Source of the DNA: Herbinix sp.
GTDB taxonomy: Bacteria; Bacillota; Clostridia; Lachnospirales; Lachnospiraceae
Reading direction: 5' to 3'
Assembly: GCA_029240245.1 (NCBI GenBank)
Contig: JARBTJ010000009.1
Location: forward strand, 1 to 64,000
Length of the DNA: 64,000 bases
Positions 52,359 to 59,518 of this stretch are shown one piece after another. The position numbers and the translations under genes are program-made. The notes under the pieces are model-generated. The model saw only the letters and a program-made list of their open reading frames with translations. It was not told where the DNA came from and searched no databases. Each line of letters opens with the position of its first letter. The stretch's first letter is position 1.

Positions 52359-52991
52359 CTATTGTGGTGCTTTCTCTTTCTTTCCTGTAATACTGCTGGT
52401 CGCATCCATTTCAAATGAAGTTTCTGCTTCATCTGTCATGAAATATACATTTCCTTCAACCTTTGCGTCTACTAGCTGGAAGTGTTTCGCATTCACATAA
52501 ATATCACCAACGAATGTTCCGCTTTGAATTCTTGCTTCCGGACTGTTAACGGTAAGTTTCGGCGCAGTCAAGGTATAACGTGCTGTTACCTTCCTGTTTT
52601 CATCCTGTTCGTATAAAGCGATCTTTCTCTGAATTAAGTCATTACCGTTTTCATCCTGTTTTCCGTTTTTGAATTCGCCATCCAAAACAAGATCCTGATT
52701 CAATGTCATATCCTTTAGAAGACAGATAATCCAGGTTCCTTTTGTACTGATTGCATTCAAAAATGCTTCCTCTGTATTAACGATTGAAGCGGTAGTCACC
52801 ACATCGGCTCCGCCCGTCGGTGTTGTCTCAGCAGTAGTTGTCGGCGTTGGTGCCGTGGTGGACGCTGCTGTAGTCGGCGTTGCTGCTCCGCCGGTCGGTG
52901 TAGGTGTTGCTCCATCATCATCGTTGGTTCCACATCCTGTAAGCAATGTAATCAGAATACATAATGTTAATAATGTGATTTTAACTTTCAT
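52359..52991 (-). CDS. small lipoprotein with Thr/Pro linker, possibly FLEET-associated
   Basis: This 210-residue lipoprotein has lipobox LLTGC, then a Thr/Pro/Ala-rich linker (about 28-66: PTPTGGAATPTTAAS and similar), then a domain of about 140 residues rich in strand-like repeats (LNQDLVLDGEFKNG, YTLTAPKLTVNSPEARIQSGTF, AKHFQLVDAKVEGNVYF). That resembles a bactofilin- or beta-helix-type surface domain. No flavinylation or heme motif is seen. It is downstream of the electron-transfer genes on the same strand, but a strong hairpin separates them, so it may have its own promoter. The link to electron transfer is only positional. Confidence 0.6.
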   Translation of the reverse strand: MKVKITLLTLCILITLLTGCGTNDDDGATPTPTGGAATPTTAASTTAPTPTTTAETTPTGGADVVTTASIVNTEEAFLNAISTKGTWIICLLKDMTLNQDLVLDGEFKNGKQDENGNDLIQRKIALYEQDENRKVTARYTLTAPKLTVNSPEARIQSGTFVGDIYVNAKHFQLVDAKVEGNVYFMTDEAETSFEMDATSSITGKKEKAPQ

Positions 52992-53226: not shown

Positions 53227-54273
53227 TTACTTATTGATATAGCTTTCAAAGCCACTGCTGAATTTCTCATCACCATTACTGTATACCCATAATGCTTCTG
53301 TATCCGACAGGCTTTCTACTAATGCCAGTCCTTGTTCAAAGGGCATATTAAATACAGCGGTAGAGAGGGCATCCGCAAGACCGCCATCCTTCGTTAATAT
53401 AGAAACGGAGGCGTAATAGTTCGCCGGCATTAAGGTTTTCGGGTCGATGATATGATGATACTGCTTATCCTCCACAACATAAAATCTTTCGTATACGCCG
53501 CTGGTAACCAGTGACATATTTTTCAAATTTAAGATATATAAATTAGTTTCATCGCTTTCTGTGTCAGGATTTTGAATACCTACCTTCCAGTCTTCTTTAC
53601 TGTCAGCCTTAGCTCCTAAGGTCCGTACATTTCCTCCCACACTTAAGGACCCACTGGTAAATCCGCTTTCATAAACGATATAAGCAACCTTTTCTGTTGC
53701 GTAGCCTTTGGCGATTGCACCAACATCCAGCTTCATTTTAGGGTCCTCTAAATAAACAGTGGATTCTTCTTCATTGATCATAACTTTATTAAAATCCGTA
53801 TGTTTTGCCTTTTCTTTTAAGACATCCATCGGAGGTAATTTCGCATTCACAGGGTCATCGATACCTTCTGTTCGGTAATCATGCCAGATAGATAGCACTG
53901 CGCCGTATGCCACATTTACTTTCCCCTCGGTTAGCTGGTAAGCTTCCCTTGAAAAAAGGAGCAAATCGATAATTCTCTGATCCACCTTAACCGGTGCAAT
54001 ACCGGCGTTATCATTAATGGTTTTTATATTGTTAATACCTTCGTAGTCATTATAGATATCATATAATTTGTGATATTCGCCTAGCTTGTCATAGATGATC
54101 TGAGCATATTCCGAGAATTCATCCTGATCTTTTGTGTAGCCCACAATAGTAGTAACCGTATCGAATAATTCAAGGAAGGTAGCCTCAAAACGTACCTTTT
54201 TCGTATTATTGCAAGCGGATAAGCTACAAATTAGAATAATCATTACTAAAATCGTCAATATTTTTCTACTCAA
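53227..54273 (-). CDS. fmnB: FAD:protein FMN transferase (ApbE family), FmnB-like lipoprotein
   Basis: This protein of about 348 residues attaches FMN by a phosphoester bond to Thr/Ser of exported proteins. It has a lipoprotein signal (lipobox LSAC). ApbE features are visible: DTVTTIVGY, NVAYGAVLSIWHDYR, KLDVGAIAKGYATEKV, SLSVGGNVRTLG, YHHIIDPKTLMPA and the metal-binding DGGLADALSTAVFNM. The start is probably the TTG at 54273, eight bases after AAAGG; the GTG at 54282 overlaps that site. It is the gene following pplA on the same strand, matching Listeria FmnB, which flavinylates PplA. A hairpin terminator lies between the two genes. Confidence 0.92.
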   Translation of the reverse strand: MSRKILTILVMIILICSLSACNNTKKVRFEATFLELFDTVTTIVGYTKDQDEFSEYAQIIYDKLGEYHKLYDIYNDYEGINNIKTINDNAGIAPVKVDQRIIDLLLFSREAYQLTEGKVNVAYGAVLSIWHDYRTEGIDDPVNAKLPPMDVLKEKAKHTDFNKVMINEEESTVYLEDPKMKLDVGAIAKGYATEKVAYIVYESGFTSGSLSVGGNVRTLGAKADSKEDWKVGIQNPDTESDETNLYILNLKNMSLVTSGVYERFYVVEDKQYHHIIDPKTLMPANYYASVSILTKDGGLADALSTAVFNMPFEQGLALVESLSDTEALWVYSNGDEKFSSGFESYINK

Positions 54274-54295
54274 GATAATCACCTTTCGTTCCTTA

Positions 54296-54365: not shown

Positions 54366-55460
54366 TTATTGAGCTACTGCTTTGTTGATAACTTCAACAA
54401 ATGCATTGATATGTACTGTTACGGAGCTTAAAAGATCAGCGTCAGTTGCATATCCATCAGTCATTGCAATACCGTTAACTTCGTCTAAGGTTTTGCCGGT
54501 TACATAAGTAGCAAATGCGTTTGCCTGCTCATACCACTCTTTGCTGATACCGGATTTTGCTTTCATACCATAAGCATCCTTGAGAACTTGCTTTGACTCA
54601 GGAGCTACAGTTAAATCAGTAGTAACAACACCGGTAGCATTGAAGTTAACATTTCCCTGGGAAGCATCAATTACACAGCTAGTGATTTTACCTGCAGCAT
54701 CAGTTGTTGTAACTACATAGTGAGAATAAGCCTGAGCTAAACCGTCAGCTTCTGCAGTTGCATCTTTGGATTTAGCCATATCTGTAGAGATACCAAGTCC
54801 AAGCTTATCTGTAGAAGAAGCTCCTAAATTCTGAGCGCTTGCAACAGCTTTGTCAATTGCATCGATAAATTCATTCACATGTACAGTTACGGAAGAAGCT
54901 AAGTCAGCATCTGTAGTTTTGCCTTCTTCGTTTAAAGCGATACCTTTTACTTCATCAATAGTTTTGCCAATTACGTATGTAGCAAATGCATTCGCCTGCT
55001 CATTCCATTCTTTGCCGATATCGGATTTACCAACCATACCGTATTCAGCACCAAGTTCCTGTTTGGACTTGAATTTTGTTGCGATATCAGTTGTAAGCTT
55101 ACCTTCTGCATTGAAGTTCATCTTAGTCTGAGCTACGTCAATTTTGCAATCTACGATTTTGCCGTCTTCGCCAACTAATACTGCAACAACAGTAGAGTCA
55201 ACTTCTGCTAAACCGTCAGCATCTGCAGCTGCATTCTTGGATTTGCCAAGAGCTGTAACAATTGCAAGACCAGTTTTAGCTGTTGCTGTAGCTGCTGCAT
55301 CATCAGCAGGTGCTTCTGTAGGATCAGCATCATCAGCAGGTGCCTCAGTAGGTGCTGTTGTAGGATCTGTATCAGGTGTGCCTTCATTTTTCTTACCGCA
55401 TGCGGTAAACATTGTCATTACTAACGTTAATGCCAGTAATAAGGTTAAAAGTTTTTTCAT
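54366..55460 (-). CDS. pplA: PplA-type flavinylated surface lipoprotein (two FMN sites)
   Basis: This 364-residue lipoprotein (lipobox FTAC, Cys21) has an acidic Thr/Pro/Ala linker (28-60) and two homologous domains (about 62-208 and 218-364). Each domain ends with DADL(A/L)SSVTVH(V/I)N followed by a helix, which has the shape of the ApbE flavinylation site. The predicted FMN-bearing residues are Thr192 and Thr348. The two-domain design with a lipid anchor and the neighbouring genes match Listeria PplA, the terminal extracellular electron carrier. It is probably the most expressed gene of the set: strong AGGAGG site and a terminator right after it. The domain pairing suggests an internal duplication. 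Confidence 0.88.
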   Translation of the reverse strand: MKKLLTLLLALTLVMTMFTACGKKNEGTPDTDPTTAPTEAPADDADPTEAPADDAAATATAKTGLAIVTALGKSKNAAADADGLAEVDSTVVAVLVGEDGKIVDCKIDVAQTKMNFNAEGKLTTDIATKFKSKQELGAEYGMVGKSDIGKEWNEQANAFATYVIGKTIDEVKGIALNEEGKTTDADLASSVTVHVNEFIDAIDKAVASAQNLGASSTDKLGLGISTDMAKSKDATAEADGLAQAYSHYVVTTTDAAGKITSCVIDASQGNVNFNATGVVTTDLTVAPESKQVLKDAYGMKAKSGISKEWYEQANAFATYVTGKTLDEVNGIAMTDGYATDADLLSSVTVHINAFVEVINKAVAQ

Positions 55461-55547: not shown

Positions 55548-56450
55548 CTAGCCAATAAAGGTACTAATAAAAATCATTAGTGAATTTGCACCCATGATTA
55601 TGATGTAATTCTGAATGGCTATTATAAATGTGGTAGCCTTATCCTGTTTCTTAAAGAATATCTTAATATTCTTCTGTACAATAAAGATTGTAAGTAAAGA
55701 TAGCAGGCATAATGGAGAAAGCATTTTAAATACTACCAAAAGTATGGTTGCTGCATAGGTTGTATAATATAACCCAGCAAACAGGGATAACGCTTTTTCT
55801 CCAATGTAGTAAGGCAAGGTGTGTCGCTTCACGGTAATATCCTTCTCTAAATCACATATATTGTTTGCCAACATAATATTGGCAGTGGTACAGAAGGGTA
55901 TTATCGACAGAAGTAATAAGGATATGATTGGCCTTATTTCTAATACTAGGGATATTGTCTGAAAATTAACATTCAATGACAAAAAATATCCGGAAGGCAT
56001 GTTAATATACAATATAATAAATGGTATCAGCAACCCATAAAATATTCCGGATAAGGCCTCGCCAAGCGGCTGCCTGGATATGGGAACCGGTCCATAGGTG
56101 TAAAATACTCCACATAGAAAGCAAATTCCACCTGCAATTAATACAACAATGTCGGTAAGATAGGCCAAATACAATCCCAAAGCAGCACTTATACCAAATA
56201 GAATATAAATAATCACAAGTGCTGTCTTTCTTGTAAACTGTAATTTCTGATGATTGTTTTTCGTATCTATGTAGTTGTTAATTGCTGTCGTAGTTAAATC
56301 AAACATAAACATTGCTCCGAAAAAAATTAAAGTAAGTTCCCAGTTTAGAGTCTGCTGCTTATAAATCAGATAAGCAATCGTCATCAGAAAAGCAAAGGTA
56401 CTGGTAATCTTAGTCCTAATTTCAACATAACCTAAAAATCTTTTTACCAC
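55548..56450 (-). CDS. dmkA: UbiA/MenA-type prenyltransferase (DmkA-like)
   Basis: This protein of about 300 residues has eight or nine membrane helices and belongs to the UbiA superfamily; it would attach a polyprenyl chain to DHNA to make demethylmenaquinone. The two prenyl-diphosphate-binding motifs are present in altered form: NNYIDTKNNHQK and NNICDLEKDITVKRHTLPYYIG. The best start is the GTG at 56450, five bases after an AGGTGG site; a GTG at 56459 is also possible. It lies between dmkB and pplA on one strand, as in the Listeria electron-transfer locus (DmkA). No menG-type gene is adjacent. Confidence 0.85.
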   Translation of the reverse strand: MVKRFLGYVEIRTKITSTFAFLMTIAYLIYKQQTLNWELTLIFFGAMFMFDLTTTAINNYIDTKNNHQKLQFTRKTALVIIYILFGISAALGLYLAYLTDIVVLIAGGICFLCGVFYTYGPVPISRQPLGEALSGIFYGLLIPFIILYINMPSGYFLSLNVNFQTISLVLEIRPIISLLLLSIIPFCTTANIMLANNICDLEKDITVKRHTLPYYIGEKALSLFAGLYYTTYAATILLVVFKMLSPLCLLSLLTIFIVQKNIKIFFKKQDKATTFIIAIQNYIIIMGANSLMIFISTFIG

Positions 56451-56535
56451 AATGTCCACCTAACTTACTCAGCGTCTGTCAACCAACTCTACCAGAAGGT
56501 AAAGTAGTTGACATAGCTGAATCATCAAACTGTCC

Positions 56536-57516
56536 TTATGCTGTACGGGATGCCTTATTTAATAACATAATAAGTTTATCCTTTTTATTGTCCGTAATAT
56601 CCAAATCATCCACTATTTTCATGGATTTATTGTAATACTTGCGTACAATCAGGCGAGTGAAATCCAGACCACCTGTTTTAGATACCGCTTCATTAATCTC
56701 ACTACGGGATACTCCACTGCCTTGAGCCTTCGCTCTGAAATCACCTAATTGTTTCAGTGCATGAATGAGCGGAAGTGTTATGACGCCCTGTTCGTAATCC
56801 GATTGTACCGGCTTATTCGCCGTTTCAACCGTATTTTCAAAATCTATGCAGTCATCCGTCAACTGAAAAATCATACCGATGTAATTACCCAATTTTCTGT
56901 ATTTCTTTGCTTCAGCCTCGCTGATGCCGGTAAATAACGCACCTGCAAAAAAGGAAGCTTCAAACAGAGCAGCTGTCTTTCCCGATATAATTTTCAAATA
57001 ATTAAAAAATGTCAAATTTACATTGTAATTATTTATATGCTGGTTCAGTTCGCCAAGGCAAACTTTTTCTACATAATCTGGCATATTAAGATTTAAAAAA
57101 TCCTGTCTGTTGGATATAGAGGCCGCCATACGGAGGGATACACTTAACAAATAGTCACCGCAAATTACTGCAGTTCTTTTTCCGTATTTCTTCTGAAGGG
57201 TGATATTTCCTCTGCGTAAATCAGCATTGTCAATTACATCATCATGAACCAGTGTAGCTAGATGTAATATTTCAATTGACGCTGCGATTTTAACTGCATC
57301 GGGATGAATCATTCCCTCTTTATCCTCTGCACAGATTAAAACTGAAGCAGCACGGATATATTTCCCCTGAGAAGCCAGTAAATGTTTTGTGTACTCGCGG
57401 ATAACGATCGGCGACTTGGATAAGGTATTATTGATCTCTGCCTTTACTAGATCGAATGCCTCATCGTACCATATTTTCTGGATATTCTCATCCATTGTTT
57501 TAACATCATTAATCAT
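56536..57516 (-). CDS. dmkB: polyprenyl diphosphate synthase (DmkB-like)
   Basis: This 326-residue trans-isoprenyl diphosphate synthase builds the side chain for the quinone. Both aspartate-rich regions are visible: HLATLVHDDVIDNADLRRG (first, DDxxD) and FQLTDDCIDFE (second, DDxxD). KYIRAASVL is an early segment, in the position of the GKRxRP region but lacking that standard sequence. Its start overlaps the end of ndh2 by eight bases, so the two are co-translated. In Listeria the equivalent DmkB supplies the demethylmenaquinone tail for flavin-based electron transfer. Chain length cannot be read. Confidence 0.9.
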   Translation of the reverse strand: MINDVKTMDENIQKIWYDEAFDLVKAEINNTLSKSPIVIREYTKHLLASQGKYIRAASVLICAEDKEGMIHPDAVKIAASIEILHLATLVHDDVIDNADLRRGNITLQKKYGKRTAVICGDYLLSVSLRMAASISNRQDFLNLNMPDYVEKVCLGELNQHINNYNVNLTFFNYLKIISGKTAALFEASFFAGALFTGISEAEAKKYRKLGNYIGMIFQLTDDCIDFENTVETANKPVQSDYEQGVITLPLIHALKQLGDFRAKAQGSGVSRSEINEAVSKTGGLDFTRLIVRKYYNKSMKIVDDLDITDNKKDKLIMLLNKASRTA

Positions 57517-59518
57517 TATAAATATACCACTTTCTAACGAATGGTAGTTTTTTCCATACTTTCTTTAGGCCTGGTATTGCATAATAGTCAAGACCAAAGG
57601 TTCTGCCTGCGCCAATTAATACAGCGATACCGGCAAAAATCATCCAGAAGGTTCCTAAATATAAACCGGTTGTACATACGAACATGAATTGCAGTATTAA
57701 GGATAAGGCAGCTGCAGGGGTTGTAAATAGTCCACCCATAAGTGCAAGACCGATTAAAATTTCTGCAACAACAATGAAAATCTGCATTGCAAGCTGTACA
57801 CCGTCCTTCGGTAAAATGAGTTTGTCAATAAACCAGTTCATTGCAGGGATATCAAGCTTAAATGCATAATCACTGATTTTAGATTCTGCAAGCGTCTTAC
57901 CGCTGACAAAAATCACTTTAACCAAACCAAGGATATTCCAGTCAGCAAGTACCTGACCAATTGCTTCTACTGCTCCACCGGCTGCTCCGGTTGCTGCACT
58001 AACTGCATCAGCTGCTACATCAGCTCCTGCTCCCGTAGCTGCACTAACAGTATCAGCACCTGCGGAGGTTTCTACAATACCTAAAATGCTGTTATACCAG
58101 GAATTAGCACCGCCGAAGAATCCGGTAAGCTTCGGTGCTTTAAACCAGCCATCCACGATCTTCATAATACCTTCAAATAACCATACGGCACCAAGCCAAA
58201 ATCTTAATGCTACTAATAAGAAGCTTGGCGTTTTATTGGAGAAATGTCCGCCAACAAAACTTCTGTTATTTCTTATCGTAAAGAACTCATGTTTTGCGTA
58301 ATTGAATATTTTATTCCAGCCAAGAACCTGTATAAAATAAATTATATTGATAAAATGCTTTGCAAACATTGCAAAGAAGGAAGGTAAGCTGAAGAAGTGA
58401 TTCGGCAAACCAACATGGGCCACACCGTAGCGTCCGCCTACACATACCATGACACCATGGAATGCGGGTTTGTAAACTTCCATTTCGCCTTTACCGGTAA
58501 TTGCAGCCACTATATTATGTGCACAGGTATGAGCGCTTTGCTCGCAGTTTTCAACCATCTGAGGTACTGGACGTTCTTCACCTTCCGGAACAAAGTACAT
58601 ATTATCACCAATTACATATACATTCTGGTTCTTGGTGGAACGAAGATGTGAATCTACCTGAATGCGTCCGCCTCGTACTAATTCTAAATTGGTGCCTGCT
58701 TCCTTCGTTACATCCGCACTTTGGATACCTGCTGCCCAAATAATTGTACCAACACTGTAGGTCTGAACCTTATCATTTTGTTTTAATTCTATGCTATCCT
58801 TTGTTACATTTGTAACAAACGCGCTCATGATAAGTTTGACACCCATTTTTTCGAGTCTTTTTGAAACCTTTCCGGAAAGCTTTTCCGGTAAGTTTGGAAT
58901 TGGTCTACTTAAACCATCCACGTTTACTAAGGTTACATCACTTCTCTTTATGTCATATTTTTCACAAAGAAAAGGAACATATTCCGCCAATTCACCAATC
59001 ATCTCTACACCGGTAAATCCTGCGCCAACAACATAGAACGATAATAATCTTTTTCTTTCAGTTTCATTCGGTTCGCATGAAGCGATACGGAATGTATTAT
59101 GAATATGTTCTCTTAATAAAACAGCATCCTCATAGGACCATAATTTGTAAGTAAACTCTTCCGCTCCGGGTATTCCGAAGAAGGTAGGCTTTGAACCTGC
59201 TGCAATTACTAAGTAATCAAACTTATAAGATTCGTTGGAGCCAACAACTATTTTTTTATCATAGTCTACTGAGGTTACCGTATCAAGCTTAACATCAACT
59301 TTTCTTCCGGCAAAAACTTTTTTTAAGTTGATTTTAATGCTATCCTCATCTACACGATTTGCAGCTACTTCATGTAGCTCCGTGAGCATCGTGTGGAAGG
59401 GATTTTTGTCGATAATTGTAATGGTAACATCATTATTCTTTTTGAACTTTTTAGCCAGTTTTTTTGCTGTTAAAATACCAGCGTAACCGGCACCGATAAT
59501 TACAATTCGTTTTTCCAT
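57509..59518 (-). CDS. ndh2: type II NADH dehydrogenase with C-terminal membrane domain (Ndh2)
   Basis: This 669-residue protein has an NDH-2 flavoprotein core (about 1-400) with the FAD motif IIGAGYAGILTAKKLAKK and the NADH motif VVGAGFTGVEMIGELAEY, passing electrons from NADH to quinone without pumping. The C-terminal 240 residues form a DoxX-like region with about four membrane helices (FLLVALRFWLGAVWLFEG; AMQIFIVVAEILIGLALMGG; AALSLILQFMFV; TFWMIFAGIAVLI), the extended form found in Listeria EET Ndh2. The loop between helices 1 and 2 (about 457-565) contains DTVSAATG (489-496) and DAVSAATG (504-511). It is the first gene of the operon; a good AAGGAG site precedes it. Confidence 0.9.
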   Translation of the reverse strand: MEKRIVIIGAGYAGILTAKKLAKKFKKNNDVTITIIDKNPFHTMLTELHEVAANRVDEDSIKINLKKVFAGRKVDVKLDTVTSVDYDKKIVVGSNESYKFDYLVIAAGSKPTFFGIPGAEEFTYKLWSYEDAVLLREHIHNTFRIASCEPNETERKRLLSFYVVGAGFTGVEMIGELAEYVPFLCEKYDIKRSDVTLVNVDGLSRPIPNLPEKLSGKVSKRLEKMGVKLIMSAFVTNVTKDSIELKQNDKVQTYSVGTIIWAAGIQSADVTKEAGTNLELVRGGRIQVDSHLRSTKNQNVYVIGDNMYFVPEGEERPVPQMVENCEQSAHTCAHNIVAAITGKGEMEVYKPAFHGVMVCVGGRYGVAHVGLPNHFFSLPSFFAMFAKHFINIIYFIQVLGWNKIFNYAKHEFFTIRNNRSFVGGHFSNKTPSFLLVALRFWLGAVWLFEGIMKIVDGWFKAPKLTGFFGGANSWYNSILGIVETSAGADTVSAATGAGADVAADAVSAATGAAGGAVEAIGQVLADWNILGLVKVIFVSGKTLAESKISDYAFKLDIPAMNWFIDKLILPKDGVQLAMQIFIVVAEILIGLALMGGLFTTPAAALSLILQFMFVCTTGLYLGTFWMIFAGIAVLIGAGRTFGLDYYAIPGLKKVWKKLPFVRKWYIYND

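Follow-up and report, generated by a model that had tools for sequence, protein, structure and literature searches.

It is unsettled how, in Gram-positive extracellular electron transfer, electrons leave the membrane and reach flavoproteins at the surface: eetA is dispensable in Listeria, while EetA has been placed in the path in Lactiplantibacillus plantarum. A locus of Herbinix sp. raises the question whether the NADH dehydrogenase Ndh2 could itself carry flavin to the outside. The stretch analyzed here, hereafter the window, comprises 64,000 nt (GCA_029240245.1, contig JARBTJ010000009.1, positions 1 to 64,000, forward strand). Its minus strand contains a locus of the flavin-based extracellular electron transfer (FLEET) type, with genes for Ndh2, a polyprenyl synthase, a UbiA prenyltransferase, a PplA-like lipoprotein, and an ApbE-family flavin transferase (FmnB). 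A reading made from the sequence alone (the sequence-only reading) had pointed to two ApbE-like motifs in a loop of Ndh2. We consider it likely that FLEET Ndh2 is a substrate of the neighboring FmnB, with flavin mononucleotide (FMN) on Thr495 and Thr510, and that its electrons go on to PplA or to direct acceptors. If this is true, flavinylated Ndh2 is a candidate protein for the step from membrane to surface, a common enzyme joins the known ApbE substrates, and Ndh2 may pass electrons outside by itself.

Position of the two motifs in Ndh2

The following elements, all on the minus strand, define the protein and its candidate sites.

57509..59518, minus strand: ndh2, fusion of a type II NADH dehydrogenase core (N-terminal ~400 residues) with a C-terminal four-helix membrane domain (open reading frame (ORF); Pyr_redox_2, E = 1.4 × 10−42; best Foldseek match 5kmq_A)
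57806..58153, minus strand: outer loop of Ndh2, residues 456-571, between C-terminal membrane helices 1 and 2 (AlphaFold2 helices; low lysine plus arginine in 250 loops)
57962..58075, minus strand: disordered arm of Ndh2, residues 482-519 (the sole run of at least three residues with a predicted local distance difference test (pLDDT) value below 50)
58034..58054, minus strand: predicted flavinylation site 1, DTVSAAT (489-495), candidate acceptor Thr495 (translation; recurs in relatives)
57989..58009, minus strand: predicted flavinylation site 2, DAVSAAT (504-510), candidate acceptor Thr510 (translation; recurs in relatives)

Ndh2 has 669 aa, and its N-terminal ~400 residues show a fold like that of solved NDH-2 structures (template modeling score up to 0.96 by target length, Foldseek). 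For the C-terminal domain, AlphaFold2 gave four helices of membrane length (434-455, 572-595, 599-616, and 625-639), i.e. the number that had been proposed from the sequence, and both motifs fall between the first two of them. The placement of DTVSAATG at 489-496 and DAVSAATG at 504-511, in the loop after the first C-terminal helix, was exact in the translation. The model of Ndh2 (56 sequences) reached a mean pLDDT of 84.6, with the only stretch below 50 at residues 482-519, the arm with both sites; the linker around residues 411-430 ranged from ~58 to 68. A domain-only model fell below 50 at residues 485-517.

Per 100 aa, the sum of lysine and arginine was 3.9 for the loop (n = 250), compared with 22.5 for the C-terminal tail (n = 247) and 14.2 for the stretch ahead of helix 1 (n = 219). 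Since the loop is low in these residues, the tail and the stretch ahead of helix 1 are high in them, and the NDH-2 core is cytosolic, the arm is predicted to lie outside the membrane, in agreement with the earlier proposal. The N-termini of FmnB and PplA read as lipoprotein-like, so that enzyme and loop would share the outer side.

For the membrane domain itself, the Pfam matches to MauE (E = 0.0016) and DoxX (E = 0.084) were both under the curated cut-off, and Ndh2 matched neither PF04205 (FMN_bind) nor PF03116 (NqrB/RnfD membrane domain) at E = 0.1. No solved chain found at E = 10−10 covers the domain by sequence, and Foldseek against the PDB at E = 0.001 returned no solved structure matching it. 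Six of its residues were invariant in the 56 sequences (R439, Q579, W625, D644, Y645, and Y646), and E586 and K453 were nearly so. Our guess is that the conserved polar residues could form a quinol site.

Recurrence and specificity of the motif

Relatives were drawn from genus, order, class, and phylum samples and from named genomes (best 80 kept), which include Mobilisporobacter, Kineothrix, Ruminiclostridium, Sedimentibacter, Caproicibacter, and many Paenibacillus. Two of 252 unique C-terminal segments were under 140 aa and were dropped; the other 250 were aligned. ORFs below 540 aa were removed before loops were listed and FMN_bind neighbors compared.

The motif D-x-x-[ST]-[GAS]-[AV]-[ST] was present in 152 of the 250 Ndh2 loops, compared with a mean of 1.8 and a maximum of 8 in shuffled loops. 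The sequence-only reading had suggested checking whether the SAAT motifs recur in Ndh2 of FLEET loci, and they do. Clustering at 70% identity left 104 loops, 54 of them with the motif (shuffled 0.8), and clustering at 50% left 29, 10 of them with it (shuffled 0.1). A looser [ST][GAS]A[ST] was found in 198 of the 250 loops (shuffled 20.5). In the N-terminal 400 residues of these proteins, the D-x-x form was seen in only 4 of 216 cases. Among the loops listed from the genus of the window, seven in number (the window's own and those of L002-L007), each has one or two sites. Among the relatives, the motif is kept while loop length ranges from 42 to 202 aa and the number of copies from 0 to 7, and it occurs both in long Ala-rich loops and in short plain ones (e.g. 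DATTGAS, DGTSGAS, and DTTTGAT in L156-L163).

One loop (L094) consists of a tandem array of seven DAVTAAT units spaced 14 aa, as if selected for site number.

The minimal ApbE motif comprises seven residues, D-x-x-[ST]-G-A-[ST] (PMC12052999). Its strict G-A form was found in 33 of the 250 loops. DTVSAAT and DAVSAAT correspond to the '[S/T]GA[S/T]-like' form of the ApbE motif, with A replacing G. In another ApbE substrate, a change from G to A lowered flavinylation to ~50% (PMC12052999); the SAAT sites of Ndh2 may therefore be only partly occupied.

Of the window's 42 ORFs that reach 100 aa, only PplA and Ndh2 contain the motif. Its density per 1000 aa was 10.5 in the 250 Ndh2 loops vs. 0.13 in 1,639 other ORFs from 119 fetched loci. 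The motif was present in 50 of these other ORFs, and 17 of the 50 were PplA-like. When 40-aa stretches rich in Ala and Ser/Thr were compared, 43 of 71 from Ndh2 loops had the motif, but none of 29 from 2,571 other ORFs, a set from which FMN-bind-like ORFs were left out.

ApbE, PplA, and FMN_bind neighbors

The other genes of the locus and one adjoining gene are as follows.

53227..54282, minus strand: FmnB/ApbE flavin transferase (PF02424, E = 4.1 × 10−66; N-terminus lipoprotein-like by sequence reading)
54366..55460, minus strand: PplA-like lipoprotein with two FMN-bind2-like repeats and the motifs DLASSVT and DLLSSVT (sequence and motif scan; repeats found with a purpose-built hidden Markov model (HMM))
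55548..56459, minus strand: UbiA prenyltransferase, DmkA-like (PF01040, E = 3.2 × 10−18)
56536..57516, minus strand: polyprenyl synthase, DmkB-like (PF00348, E = 3.2 × 10−56)
52359..52991, minus strand: small lipoprotein with DVVTTAS and DATSSIT, candidate ApbE substrate (homologs elsewhere keep one or both motifs)

Neither Pfam (E = 0.1) nor NCBIfam (E = 0.001) matched the PplA-like protein, although its two repeats carry D-L-x-S-S-V-T sites.

Among the 139 genomes with this Ndh2 that were tested, a chosen subset of the sampled genomes with an Ndh2 match, 138 encode ApbE (PF02424; 71/71 and 67/68), vs. 22 of 48 controls, i.e. sampled genomes whose matches were only short NDH-2 (Fisher test, P = 1 × 10−17, phylogeny uncontrolled). 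The sole Ndh2 genome without ApbE is a 94%-complete assembly in ~320 pieces. In a comparison of 112 loci with a length of 8 kb or more, an ApbE gene was nearby at 50 of the 70 that have the strict motif vs. 16 of the 42 that lack it (Fisher test, P = 7 × 10−4, phylogeny uncontrolled).

Both Ndh2 and PplA sites could be read in 52 loci. The acceptor residue (Ser or Thr) was the same in the two proteins of one locus in 39 of the 47 unambiguous cases, mostly both Ser in Paenibacillus and both Thr in the Clostridia relatives, and in 14 of 18 after clustering at 70% (P = 0.047). This covariation is at most suggestive of the same recognition for Ndh2 and PplA.

Eighteen loops had no match to [ST].A[ST], AGA[ST], or [SA]GSS; by reading, 12 of them keep a degenerate form and six have none (L042, L043, L044, L046, L164, and L306). 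The surroundings could be judged for five of these six (read as L136, L137, L138, L140, and L164). The sixth, L306, is encoded next to an ApbE gene on a contig of 3.2 kb; its FMN_bind neighbors were not judgeable, and it stands outside the five. All five judgeable motif-free Ndh2 genes have an ORF with FMN_bind (PF04205, confirmed with Pfam) within 400 bp on the same strand. These neighbors carry four to five domains in L137, L138, L140, and L164, flanking Ndh2 on both sides in L140 and L164; in L136, where the gene is cut by the contig end, at least two domains are present. Of the other 114 loci, searched with purpose-built HMMs, 12 have an adjacent FMN_bind ORF, none with three or more domains. 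The difference between motif-free and other loci was significant for adjacency (Fisher test, P = 3 × 10−5) and for domain number of at least three (P = 6 × 10−7). It looks as if the arm had given up its flavins to a partner protein specialized for them, for which FMN_bind neighbors where the motif is missing would be the expected pattern.

Two of the neighbors of motif-free Ndh2 (L140:6024-9041 and L164:6182-8710) combine an N-terminal copper-amine-oxidase-like domain (PF07833) with four or five FMN_bind domains.

Elsewhere in the Herbinix genome, outside the window, there are a second ApbE (C1:3341-4168) and an EetB-like PF07456 protein (C81:53136-53564). The small lipoprotein at 52359-52991 (210 aa) adjoins apbE, carries DVVTTAS at 63-69 and DATSSIT at 196-202, and has no Pfam match. 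Its homologs (in L291, L117, L118, L181, L002, L066, L130, and others) keep one or both motifs (e.g. DAVTTAS and DETSKVT), and two-domain versions (L291 and L181) have four; the L291 copy matched Bactofilin only, below cut-off. Judging by its sequence, this protein looks like a further, undescribed candidate ApbE substrate.

Proposed electron path, alternatives, and known systems

Electron flow from NADH via flavin adenine dinucleotide (FAD) to demethylmenaquinone is established for NDH-2 and FLEET. In the mechanism that we propose, FmnB, outside the membrane, would attach FMN to Thr495 and Thr510 in the disordered arm. NADH would reduce the FAD of the cytosolic core, and electrons would pass from the core to demethylmenaquinone at the membrane. 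The quinol, at the outer face of the four-helix domain, would then reduce the tethered FMN, which would swing over to PplA or else deliver electrons straight to flavin or iron outside the cell. The covalent FMN on Ndh2, the step from quinol to FMN, and the acceptor are the parts that we infer. Unstructured tails can be flavinylated, as in the FMN_red proteins of Lactococcus (PMC10979944).

A broader proposal, which we put forward tentatively and with less than even confidence, is that Ndh2 forms a transmembrane wire in one protein, with the NADH:FAD core inside, a quinone or the membrane domain across, and one to seven FMNs on an outer swinging arm. Such an Ndh2 might alone reduce extracellular acceptors, represent a widespread class of ApbE substrates in the phylum, and have an arm interchangeable in evolution with separate multi-FMN proteins.

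Physiological data bear on the acceptor. Iron reduction by L. plantarum can be sustained by riboflavin when pplA, dmkA, or dmkB is mutated, but this support fails in mutants of ndh2 or eetA/B; the authors describe the oxidoreductase or route as unknown and propose EetA as part of it (PMC9888254). A flavinylated Ndh2, also without quinone, would fit this pattern of ndh2 and pplA mutants. In Listeria, EetB is a FAD exporter that supplies FmnB, and deletion of eetA was without effect (PMC9973259).

The same data also agree with another arrangement, in which Ndh2 is flavinylated but does not relay electrons to PplA; Ndh2 would itself reduce soluble flavins or iron, and PplA would be a parallel branch. 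Besides the riboflavin-supported iron reduction that persists in pplA and not in ndh2 mutants (PMC9888254), it is favored by the wild-type current of an L. plantarum pplA mutant given 1,4-dihydroxy-2-naphthoic acid (DHNA) and by the current that Lactococcus makes without pplA (PMC8837199). Conversely, pplA is needed for flavin-dependent current in L. plantarum (PMC9888254), and reduction of ferrihydrite is impaired in pplA mutants (PMC8837199). Sequence cannot tell relay from branch, and we regard the parallel branch as rather unlikely, though a serious contender.

Alternatively, the [ST]xA[ST] element may be a structural or assembly feature, such as a turn or helix cap, that was copied by Ala/Ser/Thr-rich expansions and carries no flavin. 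A loose [STA][GAST][AS][ST] is present in all 67 loops of up to 60 aa (shuffled mean 5.2, maximum 13), the D-x-x form in only 31 of them, and the rarity of D-x-x-[ST]-G-A-[ST] (33/250), along with the common AGAS and SGSS variants, points the same way. However, the motif sits in the only stretch of the models with pLDDT below 50, is multiplied up to seven times, is missing at five loci with FMN_bind proteins next door, and resembles that of PplA in the same locus, which together make a purely structural role improbable. Still further behind is the notion that the Ser/Thr residues of the loop are sites of some other surface modification, e.g. linker O-glycosylation; an outer, disordered arm rich in Ser, Thr, and Ala would suit it, but it leaves the fixed seven-residue spacing with a leading Asp and the nearby ApbE unexplained, and we give it very little credence. 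Least probable of all is a chance resemblance in an Ala/Gly-rich loop, a caution of the sequence-only reading that the Ala-rich loop of the window invites but that the shuffled loops and the Ala-rich control stretches speak against, as does the recurrence of the motif in short loops without Ala enrichment (L156-L163).

Several points weigh against flavinylation of Ndh2 as we propose it. First, 98 of the 250 loops have no D-x-x-[ST]-[GAS]-[AV]-[ST], in many short-loop relatives (L104-L115 and L317-L331) the site is reduced to [SA]G[AS]S, the D being absent or too distant by one residue, and position 5 of the window's own sites is A instead of G. Second, the 48 control genomes come from other lineages, and since ApbE also serves PplA, its presence ties Ndh2 to flavinylation without singling out Ndh2. 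Third, the agreement of acceptors was not significant at 50% clustering (six loci, P = 0.4). Fourth, the five motif-free genomes belong to two families of one order and may represent a single event. All five that were tested still encode ApbE, which the FMN_bind neighbors would need, so that a comparison of motif loss with ApbE loss does not discriminate; what proved informative was the adjoining FMN_bind gene. Fifth, the quinol site in the membrane domain is a guess because this domain is without a solved relative. Finally, the authors of PMC9888254 put EetA, not a flavin of Ndh2, between Ndh2 and the acceptor, and the phenotypes of pplA mutants given above, i.e. loss of flavin-dependent current (PMC9888254) and impairment with ferrihydrite with full current on DHNA (PMC8837199), count here as well.

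Full-text literature searches and the parts seen of PMC8238504, PMC11334425 (preprint PMC10979944), PMC8837199, and PMC13134045 contained no statement of a flavinylation motif or of FMN on Ndh2, within a scope that excludes the founding papers (Light 2018; Light 2019). As far as we have seen, a flavinylation motif on Ndh2 is thus unreported in the literature covered, which does not prove it new. PMC8238504 marks such electron transfer systems by an NADH dehydrogenase that has a membrane helix and is encoded next to genes for flavinylation; the passages covered name no site in that enzyme.

Among known systems, FLEET (Ndh2, PplA, FmnB, EetB, and DmkA/B) is the closest, as the window has the same gene set, with the EetB family match elsewhere in the genome. 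In the FLEET passages covered, flavinylation is ascribed to PplA and to secreted reductases, and Ndh2 is not named among the flavinylated proteins. The flavinylation motif of NqrB and RnfD lies in an outer loop. Like the form proposed for Ndh2, these two are flavinylated membrane proteins (PMC10979944); Ndh2 differs in having no PF03116 match (E = 0.1) and in being one NDH-2 polypeptide with a disordered arm. Multi-FMN_bind proteins (PF04205) hold several covalent FMNs in a row (PMC12052999) and adjoin Ndh2 where the loop motif is missing, but they have a folded domain per FMN, whereas the Ndh2 arm is without such a domain. Flavoprotein families that gained the motif on an extension or insertion (PMC10979944, 2024) resemble Ndh2 in being known enzymes with an added motif. 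In those families the motif is located at the existing flavin site, whereas in Ndh2 the FAD of the core is predicted to be cytosolic and the motif to lie across the membrane.

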